Shown here: one piece after another, positions 27,465 through 53,308 of the stretch
Layout of the letters: each line of letters opens with the position of its first letter
Numbering within the stretch: position 1 is the stretch's first letter
Origin: Eubacteriales bacterium
Lineage (GTDB): Bacteria; Bacillota; Clostridia; Lachnospirales; Lachnospiraceae
Assembly (NCBI GenBank): GCA_030524545.1
Contig: JAUNGM010000005.1
Coordinates: 62,001-126,000, forward strand
Length of the DNA: 64,000 nt
Direction of reading: 5' to 3'
Translations under genes and position numbers: made by a program
The notes under the pieces: generated by a model
The model's input: only the letters and a program-made list of their open reading frames with translations
Database searches by the model: none
What the model was told of the DNA's origin: nothing

Positions 27465-28289
27465 TTATATCTCCAAAATACTTCCTGCTGACAGATAGTG
27501 AATCTGGCTGCCCATTTCTTCGCGGAGCATTTCGTATGCTTCCACGCTCGTACAGTGGCAGGTATAATATTTGCAGGGATGATTTTTCAGTTTCTCTGCC
27601 ATACCGGTACAGAACATTTTCTGCTCCTCCTGCCGGGGATAGGCTTTCATCAGGTGCATTCCTCCTATGACATACTGAATACCTGACGGTGCAAATGTCT
27701 CAGCTTTTTTCAGGATATTAACGATGCCATTGTGGGCACAGCCGGCAAACAGTACCATCTTGTCCCCTTCCTTCAATAGCAGGTTCTGTTCATGCATAAA
27801 CAGATCAGGAATATGATGCCCGTTCATAGAAGCAAACAGGCTGTCATTCGCAGGGGAATAGCATTCTCTTCCCGTAACTCCTGCAAAAATCCGGATTCCC
27901 GCATCCAATTGATAATCTCCCGTATGCGTCACCACTCTGGGATTCTCCCTCCACTGCGGCGGCAGACCGATATAGCGGTTGACTCCGTCCGGGTCATGGG
28001 CATAAAACTCTCCCAACGCCTTTTTCTGGATATGTATCTCTGCCTGGGAATTAGCCTTCAGGAAGGCTGCAATCCCGCCTCCATGGTCATAATGTCCATG
28101 GGAAAGAATCGCCAGGTCAACGCTTCCAATATCCACACCGAGTTTCTTCGCATTCTCCAGAAACCCTCCGTCCTGGCCCATATCAAACAGTATCTTATGA
28201 CCTCTTGTCTCAATGTAAAAGCTCAGTCCATGGCTGCATACAAACTCCTGTGAAACAGCCGTGTTTTCCATTAACGTAACAATACGCAT
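27465..28289 (-). CDS. MBL-fold metallo-hydrolase (COG1237-like)
   Basis: A 274-residue metallo-beta-lactamase-fold protein with the metal-binding SHGHYDHGGG, a further ligand in FAGCAHNGIVN and a late GGMHL. The family includes proteins annotated as dihydropterin ribofuranosylaminobenzene phosphate synthases in archaea; in Firmicutes the role is unknown. The start at 28289 has AAAGGGGAG, unlike the longer frame. The operon continues into DegV. It is divergent from the small alarmone synthetase with back-to-back promoters. Confidence 0.85.
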   Translation of the reverse strand: MRIVTLMENTAVSQEFVCSHGLSFYIETRGHKILFDMGQDGGFLENAKKLGVDIGSVDLAILSHGHYDHGGGIAAFLKANSQAEIHIQKKALGEFYAHDPDGVNRYIGLPPQWRENPRVVTHTGDYQLDAGIRIFAGVTGRECYSPANDSLFASMNGHHIPDLFMHEQNLLLKEGDKMVLFAGCAHNGIVNILKKAETFAPSGIQYVIGGMHLMKAYPRQEEQKMFCTGMAEKLKNHPCKYYTCHCTSVEAYEMLREEMGSQIHYLSAGSILEI

Positions 28290-28314
28290 TCGGCTTACTC
28301 CCCTTTCCCCTACT

Positions 28315-28343
28315 ATCATACCCTCCAAAAATAGGATTTACAA
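28315..28343 (-). promoter_or_regulatory. Promoter of the MBL hydrolase-DegV operon
   Basis: Minus strand TTGTAA (28338-28343), 17-nt spacer, TATGAT (28315-28320); the -35 boxes of this and the divergent alarmone synthetase promoter are only 7 nt apart. Confidence 0.65.
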
Positions 28344-28350
28344 TAGAAAT

Positions 28351-28379
28351 TTGATAAATTTTCCCTTTTGCATTATAAT
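28351..28379 (+). promoter_or_regulatory. Promoter of the small alarmone synthetase
   Basis: TTGATA (28351-28356), 17-nt spacer, TATAAT (28374-28379). The leader is about 125 nt and contains a short upstream frame. Confidence 0.75.
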
Positions 28380-28467
28380 AAAAAATAGTGAAGCTATTCG
28401 CTGCGGTGCGATTTGTAAAGCAAATTACAGAGGTTCCCGCAGTTTTATGAAGTGCGAAATGAACTGA

Positions 28468-28500
28468 ATGAATATCATAGACCATATGCAGGAGGATTGA
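28468..28500 (+). other. Ten-codon upstream open frame overlapping the alarmone synthetase ribosome site
   Basis: ATG at 28468 opens the frame MNIIDHMQED and the stop TGA is at 28498-28500. The GGAGG ribosome site of the synthetase (28491-28495) lies inside the last codons. A still shorter frame, MKCEMN, ends just before it. There is no clear ribosome site for the upstream frame, so translation is uncertain. Confidence 0.35.
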
Positions 28501-28510
28501 ACGAACATTT

Positions 28511-29188
28511 ATGGAAACTAAAGATACAACACAGTGGCTGGACACCTCTGACCCTCAGAAATTTATAGAAAATACTGCAAAGTTTAATAATCTGATGATG
28601 ATGTACCGGTGTGCCATCCGTGAGGTCCGCACCAAGCTGGAGGTCCTGAATGATGAGTTTTCCGTAGAAAACAAGCGTAACCCTATTTCCTTCATCAAAA
28701 CCAGAATTAAAAAGCCGGAGAGCATTTACCGGAAGCTCCAGAAAACCGGCCATGCATTTACTCCCGAAAACATCAGCACACAGCTCAACGACGTAGCCGG
28801 CATACGTGTGGTGTGTGCGTTTGTAGATGATATCTATACGATCGCAGATCTGTTGTCAGGCCAGGATGATATCACAGTCCTGAAGATCAAAGACTATATT
28901 AAAAACCCCAAGCCTAACGGCTACCGCAGTTATCACATGATCGTAGAAATCCCCGTGTTTTTCTCCAAAGGCAAAACACCTATGAAGGTGGAGATCCAGA
29001 TCCGCACCAATGGGATGGACTTCTGGGCAACTCTGGAACACCAGCTCCGGTACAAAAAAGGAATTGAGGAGATGGACGGATATGAGGAGGTGAGCAAGGA
29101 GCTTCTGGAATGTGCTGCTGCCGTTATCAGTATGGACAATGAACTGCAGATAATCAAAGATAAGATCGGTGAATTTCACGATATTTGA
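28511..29188 (+). CDS. Small (p)ppGpp synthetase (RelP/YjbM-like)
   Basis: A 225-residue alarmone synthetase that moves pyrophosphate from ATP to GDP or GTP. It has only the synthetase domain (about residues 60-190), with GIRVVCAFVDDIYTIA, KPNGYRSYHMIVE and VEIQIRTNGMDFWATLEH, the substrate-binding segments. There is no hydrolase, TGS or ACT domain, so it is a stand-alone SAS rather than a Rel enzyme. Glu and Tyr residues of the active site are present. The GGAGG site is unusually far from the ATG (about 15 nt). It has its own promoter, divergent from the MBL-DegV operon. Confidence 0.92.
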   Translation: METKDTTQWLDTSDPQKFIENTAKFNNLMMMYRCAIREVRTKLEVLNDEFSVENKRNPISFIKTRIKKPESIYRKLQKTGHAFTPENISTQLNDVAGIRVVCAFVDDIYTIADLLSGQDDITVLKIKDYIKNPKPNGYRSYHMIVEIPVFFSKGKTPMKVEIQIRTNGMDFWATLEHQLRYKKGIEEMDGYEEVSKELLECAAAVISMDNELQIIKDKIGEFHDI

Positions 29189-29518
29189 AGACGTTGTTTC
29201 CCGAGAAATACGGCATTTTCCGGCACTGATTTTTTTTCGGATTTTCAGTGTTTTTGTCATATTTTCAGATAAGTTCGATTATATTACTCTATTTTTTATT
29301 AAAATATACAAAATATTCTGTTGAAACTTTGTGCAATATAGAATATATTATATTTTTAGGTAATATGATACAATAATTTCAGATGATATTATAAATACTA
29401 GAGAATTTCTACAAAAGATACGAATATAGACTTCTCGCCTGCATAATTCTATGATTTCTGGCGTATTTCTTTCTGGAGTTCCCGTACTCTGACTTCTAAA
29501 GAAAAAAATAAAGTCTGC
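29189..29518 (+). other. Gene-free A/T-rich region with an orphan promoter
   Basis: No convincing gene. TTGAAA (29321-29326), 17-nt spacer and TATATT (29344-29349) form a plus-strand promoter that would read about 210 nt into the bidirectional hairpin at 29525-29559 without meeting an open frame. A possible small RNA, or simply A/T-rich noise. Confidence 0.3.
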
Positions 29519-29564
29519 AAAAACGCCCTTTCCAATGCCTGGCTGCATTGAGAAAGGGCATTTT
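29519..29564 (-). terminator. Terminator of the tri-domain methyltransferase gene
   Basis: GCCCTTTCTCAATGC pairs with GCATTGGAAAGGGC around CAGCCAG, followed on the minus strand by GTTTTTGC. On the plus strand the tail is ATTTTGTT, so it may stop transcription both ways. Confidence 0.8.
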
Positions 29565-29576
29565 GTTGCACCTGTT

Positions 29577-32399
29577 CTATCTTCCTAATTTTTCACAGAA
29601 AGATCCCTTGACATCGCTCCAGTTCTTATCCGCATAATCCAGCAGATATTCCGCCTGCTCCATGGACATTTCCGGGAACAGAAGGAATAAGCTGTGGGAA
29701 CCGTATTTCTGAACAATACGATCTACATTCTTAATCCAGTCCTCGAATTCTCCTGAGTAAACTTTTACCCAGATGGACTTGCCTGCGGCGATAGCCTTGT
29801 CATAGATCACATCCCAGTCCGGGAGGGTTCCGTCCGGGCCTGCGTCACCGCTGGTCCACTGCAGCGCATCAATTCCGTCAATTTCCATTAACGCGTCCAT
29901 ATGCTTGATGGCAGCCGGTCCGTCCAGATGATACAGCACATGGTCTGCTTTTTCCGCCTGAGTCCGCAGTGACGGCTGGATGTACGCACGGAAATCCTCC
30001 GGTGACATCATGGCTGAGAAATCGCACTGCAGCTTCACGGTCTTGCCCGGTCCCCAGATCTGGAATACGGTATAAGCATTGCCACCTTCCTCATCCTTGA
30101 TGATATCGTAGAAACGGTCATAGTATTCATAGTAAATGTCAGTAACTTCCCGGATACGTTCCCCGATCATTTCGCCCTCGTCCAGAAGATCAAACAGGAT
30201 ATCCTGTGCCCCTCTTAAAGAAGCAAGTACATCGATGTTTTCCATCAGGTCAGGCATATCTACATAGAAATCATTTCCGGCCAGTTCACGGCAGTCTTTG
30301 GCAAGCCGGATATGCTTTTTAAACCATTTATTTTCCGGGTCAAAAGTCAGCTTCGGAACACCGTCCCAGCTATCCAGGCATTTATTAAACCATACGGTAT
30401 CTTCCTTAAAGCCGATTTCCGATCCAAGATAGGAAGCCAGGGAACCGGGACCAAAATCAATGTTCAGGTTCGGGAAGCTCTCTCCCAGGAAGTAATGCGT
30501 ATCGCAGAAATAACGGTAGCGATCCACGATTCTCTGGGCATTCTGGTATTTGTCTTCCATATCCTTCCATTTCAGTTCTTCCGGCATATTGTAATATTTG
30601 CCCTGGCAGATCTGATCCAGATAGCCGCCTTCCACCGGAGTTCCATCGGAATACTGCTCTACCTCCGGTTTTCTCGCAATGACGCACATCAGCGGACGTC
30701 CTGTATTTTTATGCTTCCAGTAGTTTGTAAATTTCTCCTTGGTACCTTCCCAGTCAGCCTTATATCCTTCTCCGGGTCCCGGCAGACGGACGGATTTTAC
30801 AGGGCCGTCAACCTTGAAGGATTTCTTTTCCTCCGCAGCTTCTGCCTTTGTTTGTTCTACAGCTTTTTCCTCTGCTTTTGCTTCTTCCTGTACAGGTGCG
30901 TCAAATTCTCCTGCTGCAGCTCTTGCACAGAAGCCGGATTCCGCATATTTTCTTGCCTGCTCTGCCGCGGAAGCCGCATCCTCCGTATAGGAATCCGCAC
31001 CAATTTCATCCGCAAATTCCTGAGAGATCGGAGCGCCGCCTACCATGATCTTGATTCTGTTTCGGAACGGCTGTTTCAAGAGTGCGGCAACCGTATCGCG
31101 AAGAGACGGCATAGTAGTGGTTAAAAGAGCGGAAAGTCCGACAATGGTTGCCTCTTTATGCTCTTCAATGGTTTTTACAAAGGTTTCGATCGGTACATCG
31201 ACACCAAGGTCGATCACCTCAAAGCCGGCGCTTTCAAACATCATGCCCACCAGGTTTTTGCCGATATCATGAAGGTCGCCTGCAACGGTACCGAGAATGA
31301 TGGTTCCCGCACTTCCTGCTTCACCAGTTGCAAGATACGGCTTCAGCACTTCCACTCCGGCTTTCATGGCACGGGCTGCTGCCAGCATCTGCGGCACGAA
31401 GATAATCTCTTTTTTGAAATTCTCGCCTACCACAGCCATAGCTCCGATCATGCCGTCATTGAGAATCGCTGTGGGATCACAGCCTGCATCAATGGCTTCC
31501 TGCACATATTTGCCGATCTCTTTGTTTTTGCCGTCCTGGGTAGCCTTGAAAACGGCCTGCATCTTTTCATCCATCGGAGTAGCCGGAGCTGCTTCGGCGG
31601 GAGCTTCTTCAGCCGGTTTCTCCTGAAATGCATTGATGTAGTTCAGACAGAACTCATCTCTTTCCAGAAGAGCATTGGTCGCATGAATCATACCGATCAT
31701 GTTTTTATTGGTAGGGTCTACAATGGCACTGTCCATACCTGCATTCATGGCAAGTACCATGAAGGCCTGATTGATGTTCTTTCTGGCAGGAAGGCCAAAG
31801 GAAATATTGGAAAGACCGCTGGTAATATGGATGTCCGGATACTCGGCCTTGATCCTGCGGCAGCACTCAGCAAATACGGTCAGTGCTGTCTGGTCTGTGG
31901 ACAGGGTAACTACCAGCGGATCGATATGTAATCTGCCTGGTGCAATCTTGTATTCTTTTGCTTTTTCCATGATTCCATGGAATACTTTCATACGGCGCTC
32001 TACGGAATCCGGGATTCCGTCGTTATCACACAAAAGTGCCACGCATTCCCAGTCCGTATCTGCAATAACAGGGAAAATCGTATCAATCTTGTCCCCTTCC
32101 AGGGAAACAGAGTTTACAAGACCCGGCCGTTTACAGAACGGAATGGCTGCAACGCAGGAACGGGCACTTGGACTGTCCACACAGATGGGGGTATCGGTCA
32201 CTTCCTGTACCAGACCGATCATCCATTTCAGAGTTTCTACCTCCACTTCCTCTTCTACAGAGGCACATACGTCCAGAAATGTGGCTCCCGCTTCCGCCTG
32301 TTTTCTGGCTCTTTCTTTGATAAGTTCCGCATCCTTATCAGCAATTGCTCTTGCAACTGAAGGGATAGACCCGTTCAGTTTTTCCCCAATGATTATCAT
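29577..32399 (-). CDS. Tri-domain corrinoid methyltransferase: pterin methyltransferase, B12-binding module and UroD-like methyltransferase
   Basis: A 940-residue fusion. Residues 1-255 are a pterin-binding methyltransferase (MIIIGEKLNGSIPSV; GATFLDVCAS; VDSPS; NISFGLP) of the MeTr/MetH type that exchanges methyl with tetrahydrofolate. An Ala/Glu/Pro linker (258-275) leads to a corrinoid module with helical cap (276-350) and B12 Rossmann domain carrying DLHDIG (Asp375, His377, Gly380). A second charged linker (498-530) leads to a uroporphyrinogen-decarboxylase-like domain (about 550-940) as found in MtaA/MtbA-type methyltransferases. The HxC zinc signature of those enzymes is absent (HLDG instead). 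Together the three parts would form a complete methyl relay from a methyl donor to folate, or the reverse, in one chain. Monocistronic, own terminator, AAGGAGGAA site. Substrate unknown. Confidence 0.88.
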   Translation of the reverse strand: MIIIGEKLNGSIPSVARAIADKDAELIKERARKQAEAGATFLDVCASVEEEVEVETLKWMIGLVQEVTDTPICVDSPSARSCVAAIPFCKRPGLVNSVSLEGDKIDTIFPVIADTDWECVALLCDNDGIPDSVERRMKVFHGIMEKAKEYKIAPGRLHIDPLVVTLSTDQTALTVFAECCRRIKAEYPDIHITSGLSNISFGLPARKNINQAFMVLAMNAGMDSAIVDPTNKNMIGMIHATNALLERDEFCLNYINAFQEKPAEEAPAEAAPATPMDEKMQAVFKATQDGKNKEIGKYVQEAIDAGCDPTAILNDGMIGAMAVVGENFKKEIIFVPQMLAAARAMKAGVEVLKPYLATGEAGSAGTIILGTVAGDLHDIGKNLVGMMFESAGFEVIDLGVDVPIETFVKTIEEHKEATIVGLSALLTTTMPSLRDTVAALLKQPFRNRIKIMVGGAPISQEFADEIGADSYTEDAASAAEQARKYAESGFCARAAAGEFDAPVQEEAKAEEKAVEQTKAEAAEEKKSFKVDGPVKSVRLPGPGEGYKADWEGTKEKFTNYWKHKNTGRPLMCVIARKPEVEQYSDGTPVEGGYLDQICQGKYYNMPEELKWKDMEDKYQNAQRIVDRYRYFCDTHYFLGESFPNLNIDFGPGSLASYLGSEIGFKEDTVWFNKCLDSWDGVPKLTFDPENKWFKKHIRLAKDCRELAGNDFYVDMPDLMENIDVLASLRGAQDILFDLLDEGEMIGERIREVTDIYYEYYDRFYDIIKDEEGGNAYTVFQIWGPGKTVKLQCDFSAMMSPEDFRAYIQPSLRTQAEKADHVLYHLDGPAAIKHMDALMEIDGIDALQWTSGDAGPDGTLPDWDVIYDKAIAAGKSIWVKVYSGEFEDWIKNVDRIVQKYGSHSLFLLFPEMSMEQAEYLLDYADKNWSDVKGSFCEKLGR

Positions 32400-32595
32400 G
32401 GCATTTTCCTCCTTGGCTAAACCAATATTCCATTTTTTCCGGTCAGGTGATTCTCCGCAATCCCTGATCAGAATCCGCTGTTTTCATACAATCGGAAATC
32501 CCGCCGAATTTCCTGCTGTATTGATATTCCTATTTTATCTCAGCAGCCTGTGTACATGCATCTGTTATTTTGGGATGTTTCTATCTTATTTTACG

Positions 32596-32630
32596 AAAAA
32601 AAACGGCTTCTTTAGAGAAACCGTTTTTTA
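32596..32630 (-). terminator. Terminator overlapping the LytTR regulator stop codon
   Basis: AAAACGGTTTC pairs with GAAGCCGTTTT (one wobble), followed by a run of T on the minus strand. The stop codon at 32612-32614 lies in the loop. It closes the FloA/LytTR gene run. Confidence 0.8.
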
Positions 32631-33352
32631 ATCTCTTCATATTTTTCTGCGGTGAGAAGGGCATCTTCTTTGCGGCCCGTAAAGCGGACAACATAGGTCC
32701 ATCGGCCGTAAGGTTCGATTTTACGGATTCTGGACAGGTTAATGATATAAGACTTATGGCTGCGCAGAAACTGCTCAGGATCCAGCTTTTTTTCCAGGTC
32801 TGCCAGGCTGGCAGAGGTTGCATAGCTGTCCTTCTCCGTATAAATGACCGTTGCATTATGTTCTCTCTGGATGAGCACGATTTCCGGTATGTCCACAAAG
32901 CTCATGCTCTCCTTTCCTTTAACAAGAAGCTTATCGCGCCGGTATCCGGATTTTACCACCTTTTCCTCAGCTTCATACCCGGAAGCAGATTCCAGGGCTG
33001 CGATCCTGTCCAGCGTCTTATTGACACGTTCTATGGAAAATGGCTTTACCAGATAGTCAAATGCATACAGTTCAAAAGCTTCCGGCATATATTCCGCATG
33101 GGCAGTGGCAAAAATAATCTTGACCTTCGGATTCAGGTCTGTCAGGATTCTGGCACAGTCCACTCCGTTCTGTCCCTTGATCCCGATATCCAGAAAAACC
33201 ACCTCCGGGTCCTCTCTCCGGAACTGGATCACTGCATCCGCAAGTTCCTCACACTCCGCTGCCACCTGGAATTCTTCATGTTTTTCGATAATCTTCCGGA
33301 GAAGAAGGCGGACACCCGCCTCATCTTCTACCAGCATAACCTTGATTGCCAT
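32612..33352 (-). CDS. LytTR-type response regulator
   Basis: A 246-residue regulator: receiver domain 1-118 with phospho-acceptor Asp55 (VVFLDIGIKG), Glu9/Asp10 and Lys near 104 (YLVKPF), then a LytTR DNA-binding domain (about 140-244; FLRSHKSYIINLSRIRKIEPY). LytTR regulators of this form usually pair with a Spo0B-fold histidine kinase; the only nearby candidate is the kinase at 35333-36196, separated from it by nfeD, floA and an acidic protein. Its start overlaps the preceding gene by 32 nt. Target genes unknown. Confidence 0.92.
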   Translation of the reverse strand: MAIKVMLVEDEAGVRLLLRKIIEKHEEFQVAAECEELADAVIQFRREDPEVVFLDIGIKGQNGVDCARILTDLNPKVKIIFATAHAEYMPEAFELYAFDYLVKPFSIERVNKTLDRIAALESASGYEAEEKVVKSGYRRDKLLVKGKESMSFVDIPEIVLIQREHNATVIYTEKDSYATSASLADLEKKLDPEQFLRSHKSYIINLSRIRKIEPYGRWTYVVRFTGRKEDALLTAEKYEEIKKRFL

Positions 33353-33776
33353 ATCCTTGCCTCATTCTTGTTTTTCTGCGTTTCCGTGAGACCGGATCTC
33401 CCAGAATCTCCGCCCAGACGACTGCTTCCTGAAGATTGATAGAAGAAGCCGCCGGCTTCCCGTCAGGCATCCGCCTTTCTCTGCATCTTCCGGTCTCTTC
33501 CGAAGACTTTCCGATTTCTTCAGCCGTCTGATCTTCAGGCATTATGCCGTCTTCTTCGTATTGCTCCGTAATCTCTTCCGTCTGTTCCTTCTCTGTTTCT
33601 TCCTCTTCCGGATGCATGTGCTGCCTTCTATCCGGCTTCATCCCCGGTGATTTCCGCGGAAAAGAAAGCACAGGTTTTTTTGAAAATGGATACAGGGCCG
33701 GATTCCCGAACGGATTGGAATGAAGCCTGCTCAGATTCCCCATGCTCATTCCAAGATTTAACAGATTTCTGCCCAT
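33321..33776 (-). CDS. Acidic hypothetical protein with a hydrophobic/basic C-terminal motif
   Basis: A 151-residue protein not recognised. It starts MGRNLLNLGMSMGNLSR, has a low-complexity acidic middle (EEEETEKEQTEEITEQYEED, about residues 57-76) and ends with LQEAVVWAEILGDPVSRKRR, a short tryptophan-containing amphipathic motif followed by basic residues. Similar C-terminal tails occur on unrelated small Firmicute proteins and may be a membrane or partner docking site (recollection, not tested). The ribosome site GGGAGGG lies 18 nt after the floA stop, and its 3' end overlaps the LytTR gene. A structural or adaptor role near flotillin is a guess. Confidence 0.6.
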   Translation of the reverse strand: MGRNLLNLGMSMGNLSRLHSNPFGNPALYPFSKKPVLSFPRKSPGMKPDRRQHMHPEEEETEKEQTEEITEQYEEDGIMPEDQTAEEIGKSSEETGRCRERRMPDGKPAASSINLQEAVVWAEILGDPVSRKRRKTRMRQGYGNQGYAGRR

Positions 33777-33794
33777 CAGGCTCCCTCCCTTCCG

Positions 33795-34757
33795 TTAATC
33801 CATGATCTTCTTTTCCGGGTTTCCGTTTCCGATCGTTTCCCGCATTTCCGTGTCAGCTTTCAGATTCTGTAATTCATAATAATCCATCACACCAATCTTT
33901 CCTTCACGCAGTGCATAGGCCATCGCCTTTGGAACCTCTGCTTCTGCCTCCACTACATAGGCACGCATTTCCTGTTCCTTTGCCACCGCCATAGCACGGC
34001 GTTCCTCTGCCTTGGCCTGGGCAATATTCTTATCCGCTTCTGCCTGAAGACTCTGAAGCTGGGCCCCGATGTTCCTGCCTACGTCAATATCTGCAATATC
34101 GATGGAAAGGATCTCAAACGCCGTACCGGAATCCAGTCCCTTGGTCAGCACGCGCTTGGAAATATCATCCGGGTTTTCCAGAACTTCTTTATGGGACAGT
34201 GCAGAACCTACGGTGGTAACGATTCCTTCACCGATTCTTGCAAGGATCGTCGCTTCTCCTGCGCCGCCTACCAGACGTTCCAGATCTGCCCTGACGGTTA
34301 CTCTTGCTTTTACCAGAAGTTCAATGCCGTCTTTCGCTACTGCAGAAACATTGCTTGTTTCAATCACCTTGGGATTTACGCTCATCTTTACTGCCTCCAG
34401 GACATTTCGTCCTGCCAGGTCAATGGCTGCTGCCTTTTCAAATTTCAGTTCAATTCCGGCCCGTTCAGATGCGATCAATGCATTCACCACATTATCCACA
34501 TTTCCGCCTGCCAGAAAGTGTGCCTCCAATTGGTTTACGCCTAAATCCAGCCCGGCCTTTCTGGCCTTGATCAGCGGCATAACGATCTTGGCCGGCTTTA
34601 CTCTTCGAAGCCTCATACCGACCATATTAAAAATACTGATCTTTACATTTGCCGCCAGAGAGGAAACCCAAAGCCCTACAGGCACAAATACAAAGAATAA
34701 CACCACCAGTAATCCGATAATTCCTAAAAGAACGATCCATAAAATATTCTGATTCAT
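33795..34757 (-). CDS. floA: FloA, flotillin-like membrane scaffold protein
   Basis: A 320-residue YqfA/FloA protein that organises functional membrane microdomains. One N-terminal hydrophobic hairpin (about 5-28), an SPFH/Band-7-like core (30-230: [46 protein letters not shown]-like), and a C-terminal coiled region rich in Ala/Glu ([24 protein letters not shown]). The ATG overlaps the nfeD stop by one base (TGATG), with AGGAGG upstream; pairing of NfeD with a flotillin is conserved across bacteria. Unusually it lies between a histidine kinase and a LytTR regulator. Confidence 0.95.
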
Positions 34758-35239
34758 CACGCTTCCTCCTTTACAATCAATTTTGAGCCTTCCACTTTGA
34801 TAATGGTGATCCCGGTATCTTTGGATATGTAGTTTCCTTCTGAGATCACATCAAAGTTGATTCCGTCAATCTCGCCTACTCCTGTGGGCCTTAAATCTGT
34901 TTTGGCGACTCCTTTTTTTCCCAGGAGATACTTAAGGTCACTGGAGCTTAAATAACCCTCTGACTTTTTTTGTTCTTCTTCCAGAATGATCGGCGAACGG
35001 AACCTTCCTTTTGATAAGAGCCATAACACCAATGCCATCAGAATTCCCATAAGAGCCAGAATCACAACTGTGATAAATACGCCTTCCATAATGGAGTCTG
35101 CCAGAAGAAATACGCCTGCTACCAAACAGATGATTGCACTGATCCCGGGAATGGAAAATCCCGGCAGCACCATTTCAATTCCTGCCAAAATGAATCCGGC
35201 GATCAGAAGCAAAATCCCCAGGATTGTCAAAGTATCCAT
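34757..35239 (-). CDS. NfeD-like membrane protein
   Basis: A 160-residue short-form NfeD: membrane segments at about 4-22, 28-48 and 52-75 and a C-terminal OB-fold domain (about 100-158; [30 protein letters not shown]). Short NfeD proteins are partners of flotillins in membrane microdomain function. AAAGGAGGG precedes the ATG. It overlaps floA and lies 93 nt after the histidine kinase gene. Confidence 0.92.
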
Positions 35240-35332
35240 CGCCGTCCCTCCTTTCTATTTCCTTTTTTTCTTCATTTTAGTCGGTTTTGTAAAAAAGAAA
35301 AGGTGAAATCCGCCATTTATACATTTTGGGGG

Positions 35333-36196
35333 TTATCTTGTCATTTTTGCCCGCGGAAATGACAGGGGCTTTCGGACAGCTTTCGGTACTGTTACGATAA
35401 AGACCGTTTCATTGTGATCGCTCTCAAATCGAATCCCGCCTTTGGCTTCCTTCAGTACAGAAGCGACAATGGCAAGCCCCATTCCATGCCCCTCTTCCTT
35501 CTTTGTGGTAAAGCCCTGATTAAAGATCTGTTTCCTGTGCTGTTCCGGAATCTCCGGGCCGTTGTTTCGCACGGCTATCTGGTAAAATTCCTTTGCTTCC
35601 CGCATATCCAGAGAAATCCTCCGCTCTCCCGGAAGACCGGAGACTGCAGTAACCGCATTATCGATCAGATTCCCCAGAACCTTGCAGAGTTCCCATGGTT
35701 CCATTGCCAGATCAGACAATTGGGTACCCACTTCCAGATAAAAGTCAATGCCCTGCTTTTCTGCCGTTTCCATCTTTGCCTGCAGAAGGGCGTTGACTGC
35801 CGGCTGCGCAGTTTTTAAAGCCCGGTTTACTTTCATGATATCCTTAAACACCGGACGCATATAATCCCTGGCATCCTCATATTCCCCCAGCTCCAGAAGC
35901 CCGTATACGATCTGAATCTGGTTCAGATAATCATGGCGCTGTTCCCGAAGCCTGCTGTTCAGATTTTCGAGATTCTGCATGCTCTCTCTGTAGCTCTGAT
36001 TCTGATATCTGGTAACGGAAAACAGGCCTCCGATCGACAGAAGGCTGCTGAGCAGCATCAGCCCCATTGCCAGGTCAAGCACAAAATCCGCCTGCTGAAA
36101 TACATCCTTCCAAAGTCCCGCTAAAATTCCTATACACAGCAAAAACTGCATACCATTAATGGCAAACAGCATTTTTGCCAGTTTTCGTATTGTCAC
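35333..36196 (-). CDS. Sensor histidine kinase with Spo0B-like (CitA/DpiB-type) core
   Basis: A 287-residue membrane kinase: two N-terminal helices (about 10-28 and 40-62) with almost no extracellular loop, then the alpha-helical phosphotransfer region LREQRHDYLNQIQIVYGLLE (His88) and a C-terminal ATPase domain with the N-box GNLIDNAVTAV and G-box GHGMGLAIV. With hardly any sensor domain it may detect membrane state or need a partner protein. It begins with GTG (site AAGGAGAAG), 21 nt after the AraC gene, and is followed by nfeD-floA and, further on, its likely partner LytTR regulator. Confidence 0.88.
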   Translation of the reverse strand: MTIRKLAKMLFAINGMQFLLCIGILAGLWKDVFQQADFVLDLAMGLMLLSSLLSIGGLFSVTRYQNQSYRESMQNLENLNSRLREQRHDYLNQIQIVYGLLELGEYEDARDYMRPVFKDIMKVNRALKTAQPAVNALLQAKMETAEKQGIDFYLEVGTQLSDLAMEPWELCKVLGNLIDNAVTAVSGLPGERRISLDMREAKEFYQIAVRNNGPEIPEQHRKQIFNQGFTTKKEEGHGMGLAIVASVLKEAKGGIRFESDHNETVFIVTVPKAVRKPLSFPRAKMTR

Positions 36197-36217
36197 AACT
36201 TCTCCTTCTTTCTTCTG

Positions 36218-37201
36218 TCACAATCTTACCCGAGATTCTCCATGATGTTTGATCCGAAAAGCCCGCGGTGTCATATTATAACGTTCTTTGAACACACGGT
36301 GAAAATAACTGTTGTTTTCGTATCCAACTGCTGCAATAATATCGCTGATGGGCAGATCCGTGTCACACATCAGCTCAACGGCCTTATTCAGGCGTTTTCG
36401 CTGAAGAAGCTCTTTAAAATTAAACCCCGTGGACTTTTTGATCATCCGGCTCAGCATGTGCATAGGCAGATGCAGCTTATCACAAAGCTCCGTAAGCGTG
36501 GCGGTTCTGTACTGCTGTTCAATATAATCCAGAGTCGTCATGGTTATCATGTTTTCATACTGATCCGGAACGCGCATTTCCACATACTGTACGGAATCCA
36601 GCAGATACAGGAAGATCAGGCCCATTGTGGTCTGATTAATACGGCTTTGGTCACCCTTGCCTGTTACAAGGGAATAGATGATATTCTCCAGAAGATTCTG
36701 GATCTGAAGAACCTCTGCCACTTTAAAATGGAGATATTCTCCCCGTTCCTCATCCTGACGGAGGACATTTACCAGAAAATCCGCAAGTACATTATTACTT
36801 CCCGCCATGGAATATGCCACATCAAAAAATTCCGGAAGCACCATAAAATTAATCGCAATATCACTTTCCCCTGCCGGAAGAATCTCATGGGTGGTAAACT
36901 GATTTAAAAACAGAAGCTCTCCCTTGCGCACAACCACCTGCCTGCCGTCAATGATATTCGTCAAATGCCCCTCGCAAACATAAAGCACCTCGATAAAATT
37001 ATGCCTGTGTGCCGGAAAATGCACAAACCGGGTATGGGTCCGCACTGCGATCAGCTTCCCCTCCTCCAGCATCTTCCTGCTGTCCACAGTAAAGTCCTTC
37101 CCCGATGTGTAAAGATCTTTATCAACCTCCGCCACCCCGTCCAGAATTCTCTGCTCCTCTTTTGAAATTTTCCTTAAATGCTTCAATAGTGTCTGCTGCA
37201 T
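36218..37201 (-). CDS. AraC-family regulator with cupin sensor domain
   Basis: A 327-residue regulator: N-terminal cupin (about 55-130; THTRFVHFPAHRHNFIEVLYVCEG) and C-terminal AraC double helix-turn-helix (about 225-320; LTELCDKLHLPMHMLSRM, ISDIIAAVGYENNSYFHRVF). Cupin-AraC proteins sense sugars or metabolites. The ATG at 37199-37201 has a weak AGGGTG site. An extended -10 TGTTATAAT (37243-37250) supplies its promoter. It lies between the RhaS-like binding protein terminator and the kinase-flotillin genes; it could regulate the sugar importer or the genes downstream. Confidence 0.9.
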   Translation of the reverse strand: MQQTLLKHLRKISKEEQRILDGVAEVDKDLYTSGKDFTVDSRKMLEEGKLIAVRTHTRFVHFPAHRHNFIEVLYVCEGHLTNIIDGRQVVVRKGELLFLNQFTTHEILPAGESDIAINFMVLPEFFDVAYSMAGSNNVLADFLVNVLRQDEERGEYLHFKVAEVLQIQNLLENIIYSLVTGKGDQSRINQTTMGLIFLYLLDSVQYVEMRVPDQYENMITMTTLDYIEQQYRTATLTELCDKLHLPMHMLSRMIKKSTGFNFKELLQRKRLNKAVELMCDTDLPISDIIAAVGYENNSYFHRVFKERYNMTPRAFRIKHHGESRVRL

Positions 37202-37274
37202 AAGCACCCTGCCTTATTTTCTTTGTACTGGTTTCTCTTCAAATTATAACATCTGAATCCGATTTACGCCACCG

Positions 37275-37305
37275 ACAAAATAAGGACGGGGCATACGCCC
37301 CGTCC
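37275..37305 (-). terminator. Terminator of the RhaSTPQ-like operon
   Basis: Stem GGACGGGGC (37297-37305 strand) with GCCCCGTCC around ATAC/GTAT, 9 GC-rich pairs, then TTATTTTGT on the minus strand. Confidence 0.9.
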
Positions 37306-37352
37306 CTGTTATAAAAGGATTATCATTTAAAGTACAATTGCATCAGCAAATC

Positions 37353-38375
37353 TTAGTACAGTTTAGCCATTTCCTCGATATTTTCGGAGTTGAATTCCAG
37401 AGGCAGGCCAAGAACGATTTCTGTACCGCCGTCATCAGCTTCTGTGATGGTGTAATCGCCAAGATCTCCGGCTGTGAAGGTCTCATCCAGAGCACCTGTG
37501 ATTTCATCGTTAGCAAGTGCGATTGTTGCATAAGCGCTGAGTTTTCCAAGGCCCTGCATATCCCACAGATAGAAGTACGGGCAGGAATGTGCATCATCAG
37601 CACCTGTGTACTCGATCATTTCGGACGGAAGTCCAAGACCTGTCAGCTTGCAAGCGGATTCGTTATCCTGAAGGTATTTAGCAGCTGCAGCGATACCAAC
37701 AGTTGTCGGTGCGCAGATTACTTTCAGATCCGGATAGTTCTGAAGAAGAGCTGCTGTCTGGTCTGTGGATTTCTGCGGCTCGTCATCACCATAAGCAACT
37801 TCTACCAGTTCCAGTTTGCTGTATTTCTCATCGCTTTCCATGATGGATTTCATAGCGTCGATCCAAGCGTTCTGGTTAGCAGCCTGAGAGGTTGCGGAAA
37901 GGATTGCCCACTGGCCTTCTCCGCCGGAGATATCCAGAACTGCATCCATCAGAGCCTGTCCAACAGCCTGTGTACCAGCCTGGTTTACGAATACCTGACG
38001 GCTGTCAGCGTTCGGAGCAGAGTCAAAGGAAGATACTTTAATTCCGGCGTCCATAGCTTCTTCCAGTTTTGCCTGAAGAGCGTTTACGTCATTTGCAGAA
38101 ATACAGATTGCATCATAGTCCTGAGAAATCAGGTTGTCAAGAACCTTGATCTGAGCATCTGCTGTAGCTGCTTCCGGATAAACAACGTCTACTGTGCCGC
38201 CTTCAGCTTCAACTGTTTCTTTGTAGGAAGCTGCTGCGATTTCGAAGAATGCGTTACCTGCAGATTTTCCAACCAGTGCGATTTTCTTTCCGTCTGCCAC
38301 ACCAGCAAATACCGGGCAAGCTGCTCCAACGATCATTGTTCCGCAAAGAACTGCGCTTACTAATTTTTTGTTCAT
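37353..38375 (-). CDS. RhaS-like sugar-binding protein of a CUT2 ABC importer
   Basis: A 340-residue exported binding protein (Peripla_BP_4 fold). An N-terminal signal peptide ends about residue 24 (GAACPVFA); the GAAC could be a weak lipobox, so lipidation is uncertain. Segments GKSAGNAFFE, ILSATSQAANQNAWIDAMK, APTTVGIAAAAK and TGLGLPSEM strongly resemble the rhamnose-binding protein RhaS of the rhizobial RhaSTPQ system rather than LsrB. It delivers the sugar to the two permeases encoded upstream. An intercistronic hairpin (38414-38437) precedes it. Confidence 0.85.
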   Translation of the reverse strand: MNKKLVSAVLCGTMIVGAACPVFAGVADGKKIALVGKSAGNAFFEIAAASYKETVEAEGGTVDVVYPEAATADAQIKVLDNLISQDYDAICISANDVNALQAKLEEAMDAGIKVSSFDSAPNADSRQVFVNQAGTQAVGQALMDAVLDISGGEGQWAILSATSQAANQNAWIDAMKSIMESDEKYSKLELVEVAYGDDEPQKSTDQTAALLQNYPDLKVICAPTTVGIAAAAKYLQDNESACKLTGLGLPSEMIEYTGADDAHSCPYFYLWDMQGLGKLSAYATIALANDEITGALDETFTAGDLGDYTITEADDGGTEIVLGLPLEFNSENIEEMAKLY

Positions 38376-38413
38376 GTTTTTTCCTCCCTTAGGATATAGT
38401 TTTTATTTTGCAA

Positions 38414-38437
38414 CTGCCTTCCCTTCAAAGAAGGCAG
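38414..38437 (-). promoter_or_regulatory. Intercistronic hairpin upstream of the binding protein gene
   Basis: CTGCCTTC pairs with GAAGGCAG (8 bp, 8-nt loop) in the gap between the permease and binding protein genes. Such hairpins often stabilise the abundant binding-protein mRNA by protecting it from decay; no T-tract follows, so it is not a terminator. Confidence 0.5.
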
Positions 38438-38477
38438 CTAACAACATAGTTTACAATATTCCGTTATGAATAAAATA

Positions 38478-39476
38478 TTATTTTTTTATCGCTCTCTTCA
38501 CCTGTCCGATGATATTCGGAAGGGCAACTGCACCGATCAGCAGCAAACCTACGATCAAAAGGATCACCTGTGCATGTACGTTTCTCTGGCCAAGGCCTAC
38601 ACGCAGACACACAATGATAAATGCGGAAATTACACCGCCTGCCAGGTTACCTTTACCGCCTGTAGAGGAAATACCTCCGAATACTGCCATCGCGATAGCG
38701 TCCATCTCAAAACCGTTACCTGTTGTAGTATTTGCTCCATAAGAAGATGATACCAGAAACAGTGCACAAAGTCCAGAAACAGTTCCCATAACTGTGTAAA
38801 TAATAAAGCGAATCTTCTGAACATGGATACCGGAATAATATGCTGTCAGACGGTTTGTTCCGATTGCATACACTCTGCGGCCAAATGTGCTCTTTCCTAA
38901 GATCACTGCAAAGATAACTGCCAGGATCAATACAAGGAACAGAATATATGGTACGCTTCCCACTTTGCCGCCGATCATACGGAATCCATCTGTGTTGGTA
39001 GCAGAAATACTTCCGCCGCTTCCAAGTACGATTTCAGCAATACCGCGGAAAATGATCTGTGTAGCCAGTGTAACGATCATTGGCGGCAGCTCTTCAAATC
39101 TTGTCAGGATAAATGCATTTACCGCACCGCAGAGAGTTCCGACAACCAGTGCAGTAAGCACTACTACGATAAAAGGAGCTCCTGTATTGCAGACAATACA
39201 GCTCATTGTCGCAGAAAGGCAGACAATGGAACCTACGGAAATATCAATCTCTCCCAATACCAGAATATACGCCATTGGAAGCATCAGGAATACTTCTGCC
39301 AGATAAACCGGCATCTGACGGAGCAGATTCTTTAAATTATAAAATTCTGAAAACCATGCACAAAAAAGATTGACTAAAATGAATACGATAACCAAAATGC
39401 CTTCCCAACTGAAAATCGTCCGTTTGATCGGACTTTCCGGCACATTGTTGATACTTCTTCCAGATTTTCCGGCCAT
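38478..39476 (-). CDS. CUT2 sugar ABC transporter permease (RhaQ-like)
   Basis: A 332-residue permease with about ten membrane helices of the RbsC/BPD_transp_2 family; the LGEIDISVGSIVCLSATM segment (about residues 75-92) and the late NGFEMDAIAMAVFGGISSTGGKGN coupling/EAA-like loop are typical. It forms the channel with the permease encoded 2 nt upstream (39479-40471). The order ATPase-permease-permease-binding protein fits RhaT-P-Q-S. Transported sugar inferred as L-rhamnose or a related deoxysugar. Confidence 0.9.
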   Translation of the reverse strand: MAGKSGRSINNVPESPIKRTIFSWEGILVIVFILVNLFCAWFSEFYNLKNLLRQMPVYLAEVFLMLPMAYILVLGEIDISVGSIVCLSATMSCIVCNTGAPFIVVVLTALVVGTLCGAVNAFILTRFEELPPMIVTLATQIIFRGIAEIVLGSGGSISATNTDGFRMIGGKVGSVPYILFLVLILAVIFAVILGKSTFGRRVYAIGTNRLTAYYSGIHVQKIRFIIYTVMGTVSGLCALFLVSSSYGANTTTGNGFEMDAIAMAVFGGISSTGGKGNLAGGVISAFIIVCLRVGLGQRNVHAQVILLIVGLLLIGAVALPNIIGQVKRAIKK

Positions 39477-39478
39477 GA

Positions 39479-40471
39479 TTACATCTCCCTTCCTTTTAAT
39501 GCACTTCTGTCAGCAACACGCTGTAAAACAACGTTTGCAACAACAACAACAAGAATCAAGACACCTTTGATGGTGTTCTGCCATAATGCGTCAAAACCTA
39601 CCAGAGGAAGGGCTTTCGCGATCGTAGCCAGGATCAGGGAACCAAGCAGTGCTCCAAGAACGGTACCGCGGCCGCCGCTCATGCTTACACCGCCGATAAC
39701 GCAGGCTGCAATAACGTCCATCTCTCCGCCCTGCTGCATATCCGGCATGGCAGAAGCATAAACAGACACCTGAAGGGCGCCGCCCAAACCGGAAAGGATA
39801 CCCATGATCACATAAACCATAAGTTTAATATTCTTTACATTGATACCGGAAACTTCTGCTGCGTTTGCATTACTTCCTACTGCATAAATCTTACGTCCTG
39901 TTCTGGTCCACTTCATAAAGAAGAAGAAAAGGACATAGCAGATGATGATCACCCAGATCACACAGCTCATTCCCAGTATTTTGGTGGTCGCAAAGTCTTT
40001 AAAGCTTCCCAGTGCTGCTGCACTTGCCCACTCACCGCCGTTGGAAATCAGATAACCCATTGCACGGTATACATACATAAAGCCCATAGTTGCGATGATC
40101 GGCGGAACATCTGCCCTTGAAATAACAAGACCTACTACTAATCCGCATGCAGCACCAATCGCAAGCGCGATCACGAATGCTACAAATGTGTTGGAAATAT
40201 GGTTGTATTTCAGCAGCATACCGATTGCCATACCGGACAATGCCAGTGTGGACATAATGGAAATATCAATACCGCCTACCAGCATGACACAAAGCATACC
40301 AAGTGACATTACCATAGTAACCGCATTGTTTTTCAGCATATCCATGATGGACTTCGGAGTCAGGAAAGACGGGCTGATCACGGTAACGATTGCAAAAAGC
40401 AGGATCAAAATGACTGCAAGCAGGGCCTCACGGGAGCCTGTGATTTTTTTCAATACAGATTTCTCTTTCAT
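39479..40471 (-). CDS. CUT2 sugar ABC transporter permease (RhaP-like)
   Basis: A 330-residue permease of the RbsC family, with the hallmark LVGGIDISIMSTLALSG (about residues 65-80) and GGEMDVIAACVIGGVSMSGGRG near 255. Its ATG overlaps the ATPase stop by one base (TAATG), so the two are coupled. It is the partner of the following permease. A non-identical pair of permeases is normal for rhamnose and AI-2 importers, in contrast to the single RbsC of the ribose system. Confidence 0.9.
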   Translation of the reverse strand: MKEKSVLKKITGSREALLAVILILLFAIVTVISPSFLTPKSIMDMLKNNAVTMVMSLGMLCVMLVGGIDISIMSTLALSGMAIGMLLKYNHISNTFVAFVIALAIGAACGLVVGLVISRADVPPIIATMGFMYVYRAMGYLISNGGEWASAAALGSFKDFATTKILGMSCVIWVIIICYVLFFFFMKWTRTGRKIYAVGSNANAAEVSGINVKNIKLMVYVIMGILSGLGGALQVSVYASAMPDMQQGGEMDVIAACVIGGVSMSGGRGTVLGALLGSLILATIAKALPLVGFDALWQNTIKGVLILVVVVANVVLQRVADRSALKGREM

Positions 40472-41985
40472 TATTTAGCGGCCTCCTTTCCTGTTGTCTG
40501 TCCCTTTTCCATAGCAAGCTCAAGGATACGCTCCTGAGTTGCTTCTTCCCTGGACAGTTCTCCGGTCTTGCGGCCGTTGCACATAACAATGATTCTGTCA
40601 CTCATACCAAGGATCTCCGGCATTTCGGAAGAGATCAGGATGATGGCATATCCTTTCAGTGCAAGATCACCCATGATGGCATAAATTTCTGCCTTGGCAC
40701 CTACGTCAACGCCCTTGGTAGGCTCATCCATGATAACAACTTTCATTTCCTGGCTCAAAGCCTTGGCAACAACCACCTTCTGCTGGTTACCGCCGGACAG
40801 AGAGCTTGCCGGCTGGAAAATATCCACAGCCTTGGTATCGACTTCTTCCAAAAGCTTCTTGGAAAGATCACGCTCTTCTTTTTCTCCGCAGATACCGTTC
40901 TTTGCATATTTGCTGATAGTAGGAAGGGTTACGTTTCTTCCCAGTCCCCAGCTCATGATCAGGCCTTCCTTCTGACGGTCTTCAGGAAGAAGGATGATAC
41001 CTTTTTCCATTGCCTCTGAAGGCTGTTTGATGTATACTTCCTTACCCTCCAGATAGACTTTGCCTTCGTCCGGTCTGGTGATTCCGCAGACACTTTCCAC
41101 GACTTCTGTACGTCCTGCACCTACCAGGCCGGTAAGTCCGACGATTTCGCCTGCATGTACATTAAAGGAAACATTTTTATAATAGCCAACACGGGAAAGT
41201 CCCTCGATTCTCAGCATTTCCTTGCCGATCTTTACTTCCGGTTTCGGGAACAGATCCTTGATCTCACGGCCAACCATCGCCTTGATCAGGTCGGCATTCG
41301 TAATCCCGTCAACATCATAAGTTCCGATGTACTGGGAATCACGGAATACGGTAACACGGCTTGCCAGACGGTACATATCCTCAAAGCGGTGGGAAATGAA
41401 GATGATAGATACACCCTCGGCTTTCAGCTTATCTACGATACGGTACAGTTCCTCGGACTCGCTCCTTGTAAGACATGCGGTCGGCTCATCCAGGATGATA
41501 ATCTTTGCATTGGTGGAAAGTGCTTTTGCAATTTCTACCATCTGCTGCTGTGCAACACTTAAGGTACCCATCTCAGCAGTCGCATCAAAGTCCGCATTTA
41601 ATTCTTTCAGAAGCTTGTTTGCCTCACTGTTCATGGCTTTCCACTGGATCATGTGGTTCTTGATGATCTCATGTCCCATGAAAATATTTTCTGCAACTGT
41701 CAGATGCGGATAGGATGTGGGATGCTGGTAAACGGCTGCAATACCTGCTGCCTGTGCATCCTTCGGCCCCTTAAAATCAACCTTCTGTCCGTCCAGGAAC
41801 ATCTCGCCTTCTTCTGCCTTATGTACACCGGTGATTACCTTAATAAAGGTAGATTTACCGGCACCGTTTTCACCCATAAGTGCATGAACTTCACCGGGTT
41901 TTAACTGGAACTGTACATTATTCAGCGCCTTTACGCCCGGGAAAATCTTGGTAATGCCTTTTAACTCAAGAACATATTCAGACAC
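40471..41985 (-). CDS. CUT2 sugar ABC transporter ATPase with two nucleotide-binding domains (RhaT-like)
   Basis: A 504-residue tandem ATPase. The first domain has Walker A GENGAGKST (residues 38-46), signature LSVAQQQMVEIAKAL and Walker B IIILDEPT; the second has a degenerate Walker A (GLVGAGRTEVVE), LSGGNQQKVVVAKAL and VVIMDEPTKGVD. This asymmetric layout is standard for CUT2 importers. It is the first gene of the operon, preceded by AAGGGAGGAG, and is divergent from the response regulator-kinase operon that probably controls it. Confidence 0.93.
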   Translation of the reverse strand: MSEYVLELKGITKIFPGVKALNNVQFQLKPGEVHALMGENGAGKSTFIKVITGVHKAEEGEMFLDGQKVDFKGPKDAQAAGIAAVYQHPTSYPHLTVAENIFMGHEIIKNHMIQWKAMNSEANKLLKELNADFDATAEMGTLSVAQQQMVEIAKALSTNAKIIILDEPTACLTRSESEELYRIVDKLKAEGVSIIFISHRFEDMYRLASRVTVFRDSQYIGTYDVDGITNADLIKAMVGREIKDLFPKPEVKIGKEMLRIEGLSRVGYYKNVSFNVHAGEIVGLTGLVGAGRTEVVESVCGITRPDEGKVYLEGKEVYIKQPSEAMEKGIILLPEDRQKEGLIMSWGLGRNVTLPTISKYAKNGICGEKEERDLSKKLLEEVDTKAVDIFQPASSLSGGNQQKVVVAKALSQEMKVVIMDEPTKGVDVGAKAEIYAIMGDLALKGYAIILISSEMPEILGMSDRIIVMCNGRKTGELSREEATQERILELAMEKGQTTGKEAAK

Positions 41986-47887: not shown

Positions 47888-49306
47888 TTACCTGGTAATA
47901 ATATCAACCGGCACGTCAAAAATCTTTGCTACCTTCAGGATGGTATCAATATGTCTTCCGGATGCTGCAGCCATATGATGCGTCGGGCCTGCTTCACTCC
48001 ATCTGTTGACAAACTCTCTCGCACCGCAGGTGAATCTGGTTCTCATATTGGTATCTCCAAAGGAAAGAATCTTTCCTTCTTCATTGATTCCTTCTGCAAC
48101 GACAAACTTAAACCGTCCGTCTCCATCCTGGGTAATTCCCAGATAGGTAACAGGTCCAAGATGCGGATAGAACTGAGTCAGGTATCCGCCGCCGGTTTTG
48201 CCATGGAATACCTTTACGATCTTCATGGTAGGCTTTTTCGCGGAAATATCGGCGTCTCCGGAGCCGCTGTGTCCAATGATACAGATATCTTCATTAAAAT
48301 CAATGGAGTACATCTCGGAAAGCTGTCCTGTTCCGGAAATGGTCTTTAAGATACTCATGGCCATAGCAACCTTCATATCTCCTTCTACCGCACAGGCAGT
48401 TCCCTGCTTGATCAACATGGAGAATGCAGGAATCAGCATACTATCCAGCACGCCTGCCTTTCCCTGTGCAAATCCGTCATAGTGGGAAGCAACCAGGCCC
48501 AACTGTTCGTCTTTGACCCATTTCTCAAAGGCAACCACATAACGTGCCATTTCCCATACTTCTTCGATGCTTCCGCCGCCTTCAATGTCAAATGTATCGA
48601 GAATATCCTGTGCTTTCTCACGGATCGTCTCTTCATCTGTCACGTCATCTGCGATCGCCCACATCTTTTCCCAGTCAAACTGCTTTGTATACAGATTCAT
48701 CCGTCTGTACAGATTTGTCTCGTCAATATAAAGATCCATCATGCCCGGATATGGTCTTCCGATCTGCGCAATATTGGTGTCACGGAATCTTCTTCTGCAC
48801 TGAGCTGCACGGCACCACTCATCGATCTCATGCTGAACGCCCTCATCGCCGCCTTCCACAACGCCGGTGATGACTGCATGACGTTTGCCGAAACGTTCCA
48901 GATCGGCCACTGCCTCGCCCACTGCTCCGCAGGCGTAACCCTCGCCAAGCCAGGAAGCGATATCTGTATGGTCATAGTCAAGCGCTTTTAATTTCTGCAC
49001 ATTGACAAGTACCACAGGAACATCCAGATCCCGTACGGCCGGAAGCATATTATAAGATGTTGCGTAGGTCAGCATCTGTACAAATACCAGATCCACATCC
49101 GCAGCACGGAATAATTTTCCTGCCTCCATAGACTGTTCCTTGGTGGTAATGATGCCGCCGTCAATAATATTTACTGTATCCGGAAGGGTTTTCTTAAACG
49201 CATCATACTGGCTTTCAAATTCCGGAACCAGAGATGGGAACTGCGGCAGATATGCCCCCAGTGCAACAGCAAACAAACCGATATTGGCTTTTGTATTAAC
49301 TAACAT
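47888..49306 (-). CDS. L-fucose/L-arabinose isomerase family protein
   Basis: A 472-residue protein of the cd00578/COG2160-like sugar isomerase family, which interconverts aldoses and ketoses with a divalent metal. Typical elements are IGLFAVALGAYLPQFP at the start, GRPYPGMMDLYIDETNL, CAVEGDMKVAMAMS (probable metal-binding glutamate) and GPTHHMAAASGRHIDT near the end (probable histidine ligand). The ATG at 49304-49306 has a CAGGAGGT site. It follows the rhamnulokinase gene, so it probably feeds the kinase a ketose such as L-rhamnulose or L-fuculose. It is not a RhaA-type isomerase. Confidence 0.82.
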   Translation of the reverse strand: MLVNTKANIGLFAVALGAYLPQFPSLVPEFESQYDAFKKTLPDTVNIIDGGIITTKEQSMEAGKLFRAADVDLVFVQMLTYATSYNMLPAVRDLDVPVVLVNVQKLKALDYDHTDIASWLGEGYACGAVGEAVADLERFGKRHAVITGVVEGGDEGVQHEIDEWCRAAQCRRRFRDTNIAQIGRPYPGMMDLYIDETNLYRRMNLYTKQFDWEKMWAIADDVTDEETIREKAQDILDTFDIEGGGSIEEVWEMARYVVAFEKWVKDEQLGLVASHYDGFAQGKAGVLDSMLIPAFSMLIKQGTACAVEGDMKVAMAMSILKTISGTGQLSEMYSIDFNEDICIIGHSGSGDADISAKKPTMKIVKVFHGKTGGGYLTQFYPHLGPVTYLGITQDGDGRFKFVVAEGINEEGKILSFGDTNMRTRFTCGAREFVNRWSEAGPTHHMAAASGRHIDTILKVAKIFDVPVDIITR

Positions 49307-49382
49307 GTTGATACCTCCTGTTTTTTTTATAAGTAAACAGATCTTTTCATCTGTTTCACTGTTCATTCATTGAGACTGCGGC

Positions 49383-50789: not shown

Positions 50790-50814
50790 TTTTAAAAACC
50801 CTCCTAAATATGTA

Positions 50815-51089: not shown

Positions 51090-51125
51090 ATTAGTTTATC
51101 CTATAATAGACTCACCTGTAATAGA

Positions 51126-53297: not shown

Positions 53298-53308
53298 GAC
53301 TGTCCTCC

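Follow-up and report, generated by a model that had tools for sequence, protein, structure and literature searches.

The closest described systems are the three-component methyltransferases of acetogens (MtvBCA, Odm and CdmBCA), which consist of a substrate:corrinoid methyltransferase of the UroD fold (MT1), a corrinoid protein, a methyl-tetrahydrofolate:corrinoid methyltransferase of the MeTr type (MT2) and an activating enzyme, all as separate proteins. The parts are also known as fused sets or pairs. Methionine synthase (MetH) combines folate and cobalamin domains, and CmuA and MtsD/F/H, the latter reported as fused corrinoid/methyl transfer proteins from Methanosarcina acetivorans, join a UroD-fold methyltransferase to a corrinoid module in one chain, presumably without a MeTr domain. 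The accessible part of PMC13222342 describes CmuA as an MTI joined to a corrinoid protein (CP). Here we analysed a window of 64,000 nucleotides from a Eubacteriales bacterium, a Blautia-group inhabitant of the gut (contig JAUNGM010000005.1, positions 62,001 to 126,000), in which all three components are encoded in a single chain of 940 residues in the order MT2-corrinoid-MT1, hereafter the fusion. We consider it very probable that this protein works as a one-chain methyl relay; its proposed substrate, an O-methylated sugar or methyl glycoside suggested by the gene context, is more tentative and falls somewhat short of even odds. For the explanation as a whole we estimate a probability of roughly 0.6. 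To our knowledge, no one-chain MT1-corrinoid-MT2 machine was known earlier. The original prediction would have been refuted by an earlier biochemical characterisation of the architecture; none appeared in the open-licence literature searched, where we found neither an MT2-corrinoid-UroD-fold MT1 chain nor corrinoid-dependent sugar demethylation. The words fused, fusion and UroD are absent from the main text of two papers from 2026 on gut O-demethylation (PMC12915777 and PMC13418474), and fused occurs in PMC10418091 only in the title of a reference.

The reading frame is intact, and the three domains first read from the sequence are borne out by Pfam, NCBIfam and the PDB, the third by its fold (Table 1). 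Pfam matches were Pterin_bind (residues 21-227), B12-binding_2 (282-352) and B12-binding (365-477), and domain 1 also had a weak match to MtrH, above its cut-off. Domain 1 is an MT2 of the MeTr type: NF005719, the NCBIfam model of methyl-tetrahydrofolate:corrinoid methyltransferases, covers residues 1-263 with 348 bits against a cut-off of 259, and the nearest PDB entry is 4o0q (E 5e-97), with 2e7f and 1f6y also matching. It contains D75, N96, D160 and N198, whose roles we assume by comparison with the Moorella MeTr. The entries 4o0q, 4o1e and 4o1f are identical in sequence, and the latter two supplied the ligands for the CdmA model according to the accessible part of PMC13222342. Domain 2 is closest to 1y80 (E 2e-54). 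Its DLHDIG is presumably the DxHxxG motif of corrinoid proteins, with His377 as the cobalt ligand. Residues 1-524 align collinearly with residues 344-894 of MetH, with 241 bits, far below the NCBIfam metH cut-off of 1011. Unlike MetH, the fusion has no detected homocysteine or activation domain (PF02574 is absent among its Pfam matches up to E 10), and its substrate domain is C-terminal and of another fold. The full-length AlphaFold2 model had a predicted local distance difference test (pLDDT) score of 73.9 and a predicted template modelling (pTM) score of 0.52, so its domain-domain contacts are unusable. An Rfam search of positions 28000-38500 gave no match up to E 0.1, and thus no cobalamin riboswitch was detected there.

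Table 1. Coordinates of the fusion, its parts and associated features (window numbering unless a locus is named).
Feature	Position	Strand	Basis or remark
Three-domain methyl-relay protein, 940 aa	29577..32399	minus	single intact open reading frame of 940 codons
Shine-Dalgarno AAGGAGG	32408..32414	minus	8 bases ahead of ATG, from sequence
Domain 1, MeTr/MT2 (methyl-tetrahydrofolate:corrinoid methyltransferase), residues 1-262	31614..32399	minus	Pterin_bind, NF005719, PDB 4o0q
Linker 1, residues 263-275, Pro/Ala/Glu	31575..31613	minus	sequence; low pLDDT at 254-272
Domain 2, corrinoid protein (cap and B12-binding fold), residues 276-486	30942..31574	minus	B12-binding_2, B12-binding, PDB 1y80
DLHDIG, residues 375-380	31260..31277	minus	sequence
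Linker 2, residues 487-545, Ala/Glu/Lys-rich, differs among species	30765..30941	minus	sequence, model, comparison
Domain 3, UroD/MtaA fold, proposed substrate:corrinoid methyltransferase (MT1), residues 546-940	29580..30764	minus	fold; no Pfam family
YHLDG, residues 823-827, H-L-D at the site of the H-x-C zinc motif	29919..29933	minus	alignment
AraC-type regulator	36218..37207	minus	relatives near the fusion in L034-L038
Sugar ABC transporter: Peripla_BP_4 binding protein, two permeases, ATPase	37353..41985	minus	parts near the fusion in L034-L038
Distant domain 3 relatives among sugar-utilisation genes	L024:8288-9367, L025:8729-9826, L027:7982-9142, L029:6126-7280		by eye

Regarding domain 3, the assignment to MT1 is made by fold, which places it in the UroD superfamily, and PF01208 (URO-D) gave no match up to E 10. 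The domain thus lies outside the family of its counterparts in MtvBCA, Odm and CdmBCA, from which it also differs in its HLD motif and its sugar-gene context; from HemE it differs in the missing PF01208 match and in being joined to a methyl relay. The reported replacement of HxC by HLDG was correct, and HLD is invariant in 61 of 61 aligned rows. In MtaA and MtbA the zinc ligands are, we assume, HxC and a further Cys. No conserved Cys is found at the presumed site of this third ligand, picked by eye as alignment columns 388-390, which suggests that domain 3 may work without zinc. The structures of MtoB and CdmB are not among the fold matches listed for domain 3, which has no bearing on kinship. 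A search of the PDB with a domain 3 profile returned four matches to unrelated proteins (best E 0.025), which we took as chance.

Two overlapping genome samples were used to describe the distribution. The first comprised 61 genomes, namely the window's own, 36 of the same genus and 24 from the order's other families, and the fusion was present in 12, all from the window's genus (two truncated at contig ends). In the second, one genome per species was scanned for the C-terminal domain, which gave 65 loci, 16 of them shorter than 12 kb. At 22 loci the three domains match one open reading frame, mostly in Blautia and otherwise in Robinsoniella peoriensis and some further Clostridia; L051 and L094 are cut by contig ends and L055 has its first domain broken over two frames. 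Among the non-fusion loci, L097 is a fragment at the end of a contig, the C-terminal domain of L096 and L098 is divided between two frames, and the rest are standalone. The fused chain is 72-92% identical to 18 other fused rows. In a quick tree of 61 rows (LG+G4, SH-aLRT only), 15 fused rows group with one standalone row, L047, with a support of 93 (the starred level is 95). The fused or standalone state requires at least two changes on this tree, and none of 500 shuffles was as low. The standalone domain of L047 (9857-11224) retains the last part of linker 2 (FDKEKTDLSGLRMPKPGEGYK) and therefore looks like a fused protein after loss of domains 1 and 2. Most simply, the fusion arose once, and a single origin is likely.

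The recurrent neighbours of the C-terminal domain, as far as they were identified among many others, are genes for sugar uptake, regulators and glycosidases. Genes of the GH31 cluster occur at 24 of the 65 loci, with about one expected in the 1.06 Mb that these loci cover, judging from the 137 GH31 genes counted over 147 Mb in 37 genomes that all carry the C-terminal family. GH106 was found at eight loci and GH95 at five; at least one of the three families is present at 35 loci, in 19 of them on the strand of the C-terminal gene and no more than 200 bases from it (family names come from Pfam on representatives and from clustering for the rest). Binding proteins, two permeases and a two-component system recur at about 20 loci each. 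The window's own genome has a comparable cluster at C5:33-48 kb, with GH95, two permeases, a binding protein, a two-component system, GH31 and AraC. Apart from GH95, which is about 50% identical to the GH95 of L096 and L072, the members of this cluster share 70-87% identity with counterparts close to the fusion at L040 or L042. The nearest matches of the GH31 protein are alpha-xylosidases such as BoGH31A, and those of the GH95 protein are BH0842 and alpha-fucosidase entries. Rhamnogalacturonan II (RG-II) was considered as a source, with 2-O-methyl-xylose and 2-O-methyl-fucose as the candidate substrates, as both occur in it according to the accessible part of PMC12168206. The literature searched gave no support for a role of GH31 or GH95, PMC8857213 contains no passage on O-methyl sugars, and RG-II stays a guess.

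The relay components are also found beside a separate domain 3. Locus L064 carries on one strand, in order, GH31, the C-terminal protein, a RACE activator, a URO-D protein with HSCG, MeTr and a corrinoid protein, and in Murimonas (L059) only 32 bases lie between the end of MeTr and the start of the C-terminal protein. Altogether, a separate gene for MeTr or a corrinoid protein falls within the fetched stretch at five of the 43 non-fusion loci (L054, L056, L059, L064 and L070). At L039, L040 and L048 the fusion, too, has RACE-cluster genes nearby, in each case with a neighbour from the DUF2284 cluster (Pfam on representatives). At the genome level, PF14574, the family of these activators, is present in 46 of 47 genomes with the C-terminal family versus 86 of 150 sampled genomes of the bacterial family (Fisher p 1e-8, a value that includes the effect of relatedness). 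PF14574 does not separate acs from other activators, and so part of this association reflects acetogenesis. Within the 150-genome sample the counts are 7/7 with domain 3 versus 79/143 without (p 0.02), which is weak alone.

Two protein types from these loci deserve a separate mention. The HSCG protein matches PF01208, unlike the domain 3 beside it in L064, and is 83-90% identical across three genomes (L064:13813-14859, the same as L014:11103-12146; L068:1948-2991; L022:8741-9787). It adjoins MeTr or domain 3 genes and is perhaps a second methyltransferase. The DUF2284 proteins paired with RACE (L101:5948-6508, L039:7472-8008, L040:6125-6655 and L048:18087-18674) are predicted to bind metal and are possibly electron donors or cobalt-handling partners of RACE.

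The window's own genome (G000) is that of an acetogen, judging by the gene content of contig C29, which encodes carbon monoxide dehydrogenase, two AcsB-like genes, the subunits of the corrinoid iron-sulfur protein, AcsE, an activator, formyl-tetrahydrofolate synthetase and FolD (names by eye, AcsE-like and activator genes also from searches). The search for a cognate activator suggested by the original prediction recovered two PF14574 RACE genes, one of them outside the acs cluster, on contig C7. The C7 RACE shares 42-51% identity with the four RACE genes located close to the C-terminal domain at other loci and 32% with the acs activator, and the gene beside it shares 48-61% with the DUF2284 genes at L039, L040 and L048. 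Most likely this RACE serves the fusion. No B12-binding_2 protein other than the fusion is present in this genome, and the same holds for five of nine distinct fusion genomes (own included); the other four have two more each, one of those in G024 being a short piece. Four of five same-genus genomes without the fusion have one or two such proteins. The AcsB-like genes of C29, of 711 and 740 codons by eye (L102:3223-5358 and 5499-7721), stand in tandem in the acetyl-CoA synthase cluster.

Starting from the computed domain identities, fold, conservation and gene partners, we propose a self-contained corrinoid relay that resembles the middle of methionine synthase with a different substrate domain. 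Domain 3 would move the substrate methyl onto Co(I) of the corrinoid held by domain 2, which would swing to domain 1 and let it hand the methyl to tetrahydrofolate. The methyl-tetrahydrofolate would then feed the Wood-Ljungdahl pathway, and a separate RACE-type activase, here probably C7:6487-8361, would rescue oxidised cobalt. The glycosidases and sugar transporters associated with the family make an O-methylated sugar or methyl glycoside, which they would release or import, the most likely substrate. The three fitting roles, the split operon L064 and the activator argue for the relay, and the acetogen background together with known systems (accessible parts of PMC13222342 and PMC8630106) suggests the direction from substrate to tetrahydrofolate. 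The self-contained methyl-transfer system of the original prediction is thereby retained, and the methoxyaromatic donor that it suggested appears less likely.

Several observations weigh against the sugar-acting relay. None of GH31, GH106 and GH95 is present at 30 of the 65 loci, and the own GH31 cluster lies 44 kb from the fusion and is not adjacent to it. No MeTr or corrinoid gene is in the fetched stretch of 38 of the 43 non-fusion loci, although such genes occur elsewhere in those of their genomes that were searched. Six distant domain 3 relatives (L024-L029, 23-28% identity) show neither a MeTr nor a corrinoid match within their stretches, and of five listed, four sit among sugar genes by eye and L026 does not; the sugar link may thus derive from an older non-methyl function of the fold. 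The methyltransferase and UroD (HemE) are tied among the fold matches, so that the domain, which has no PF01208 match, is as near to HemE as to the methyltransferase by fold, and the fold alone is no proof of methyl transfer. A sugar methyl ether also offers no phenolate leaving group, unlike the substrates of known O-demethylases, and cleavage of an aliphatic methyl ether should be harder than that of an aryl one. Finally, no MetH-like match was found in the fusion genomes examined. Two of the distant relatives' loci, L024 and L027, encode a further protein of 441 or 409 codons, maybe a second UroD-like type.

Among the alternatives, a one-chain methoxyaromatic O-demethylase, with the same relay and a phenyl methyl ether as donor, is improbable. 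Blautia is reported to O-demethylate methoxyaromatics (PMC12915777, accessible part), and the UroD-superfamily MT1s MtvB, OdmB, VdmB and MtoB do so, zinc not being required by all (PMC13222342, accessible part). However, domain 3 lacks PF01208, the identified neighbours are glycosidases, sugar transporters and regulators, and other B12-binding_2 proteins are absent from most fusion genomes, as counted above. Another donor for the same relay (methanol from pectin, an amine, a haloalkane, or a methyl-sulfur or methyl-selenium compound) is just as improbable. UroD-superfamily methyltransferases vary in substrate, with chloromethane cdmB in Blautia and Robinsoniella (PMC13222342, accessible part), and clusters with coenzyme M methyltransferase homologues have been proposed for methyl-sulfur or methyl-selenide in gut anaerobes (PMC10418091, accessible part). 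The cdm genes are, however, separate according to the former source, the main text of the latter lacks the words Blautia, sugar and glycosid, and the glycosidase link would be left without explanation.

Less probable still is the reverse direction, a methionine synthase or other thiol methylase passing the methyl from methyl-tetrahydrofolate through the corrinoid to a thiol in domain 3. The collinearity with MetH would fit, as would the fold of domain 3, which is common to MetE and the 4ay7 methyltransferase, both of which methylate thiols. Moreover, MetE (PF01717) is absent from 27 genome entries, and a MetH-like match occurs in 0/12 fusion genomes versus 6/25 other genomes of the genus (chance of no overlap 0.08). 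In another search, 11 fusion genomes have no MetH-like protein among the matches listed, and the fusion assembly G019 (the same as G067) lacks both MetE and a homocysteine domain. What disfavours this direction is PF02574, the homocysteine methyltransferase domain, found in 25 of 27 entries (23 of 24 distinct genomes) regardless of whether they carry the fusion, including G028, which has no B12-binding_2 protein. A MetH-like protein is also present in at least ten genomes with a separate domain 3, and the sugar-gene context and HLD at the site of the HxC zinc motif fit poorly. G028, of the same genus, has no match for MetE or MetH either. Least probable is a sugar-acting UroD-fold enzyme with chemistry other than methyl transfer and an attached but unused relay, which the distant relatives and the fold tie would allow, but the fused chain is kept at high identity, and one full operon and four more loci place MeTr or corrinoid genes near a separate domain 3.

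Returning to the sugar-acting relay, a broader scenario can be offered as speculation, less probable than the substrate itself: Blautia-group gut acetogens would perform corrinoid demethylation of O-methylated sugars or methyl glycosides, with GH31, GH95 or GH106 and a transporter delivering the sugar, a new UroD-fold HLD methyltransferase family breaking the aliphatic methyl ether, and the relay in one chain in Blautia, Robinsoniella and relatives. A single compound would then supply the acetogen with a sugar as well as a methyl group, and, if proven, the entry of methylated-sugar methyl groups into acetate production would be a new route. The only sugar demethylation route known to us is marine, P450-based and oxygen-requiring; the sugar substrate, if true, would name an anaerobic enzyme for this reaction. 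A one-chain relay would also give structural studies a simple system in which to follow the corrinoid domain as it moves between its partners.

In the loci nearest to the window, L034-L038, the near neighbours of the fusion are an AraC regulator and a sugar transporter, not glycosidases. The corresponding transporter of the window (Table 1), whose ATPase and second permease were named by eye and by cluster, is possibly the uptake system for the relay substrate. About 16 kb from the fusion, positions 47888-55866 encode an arabinose-isomerase C-terminal match, an FGGY sugar kinase and another sugar ABC transporter, possibly a deoxysugar pathway.
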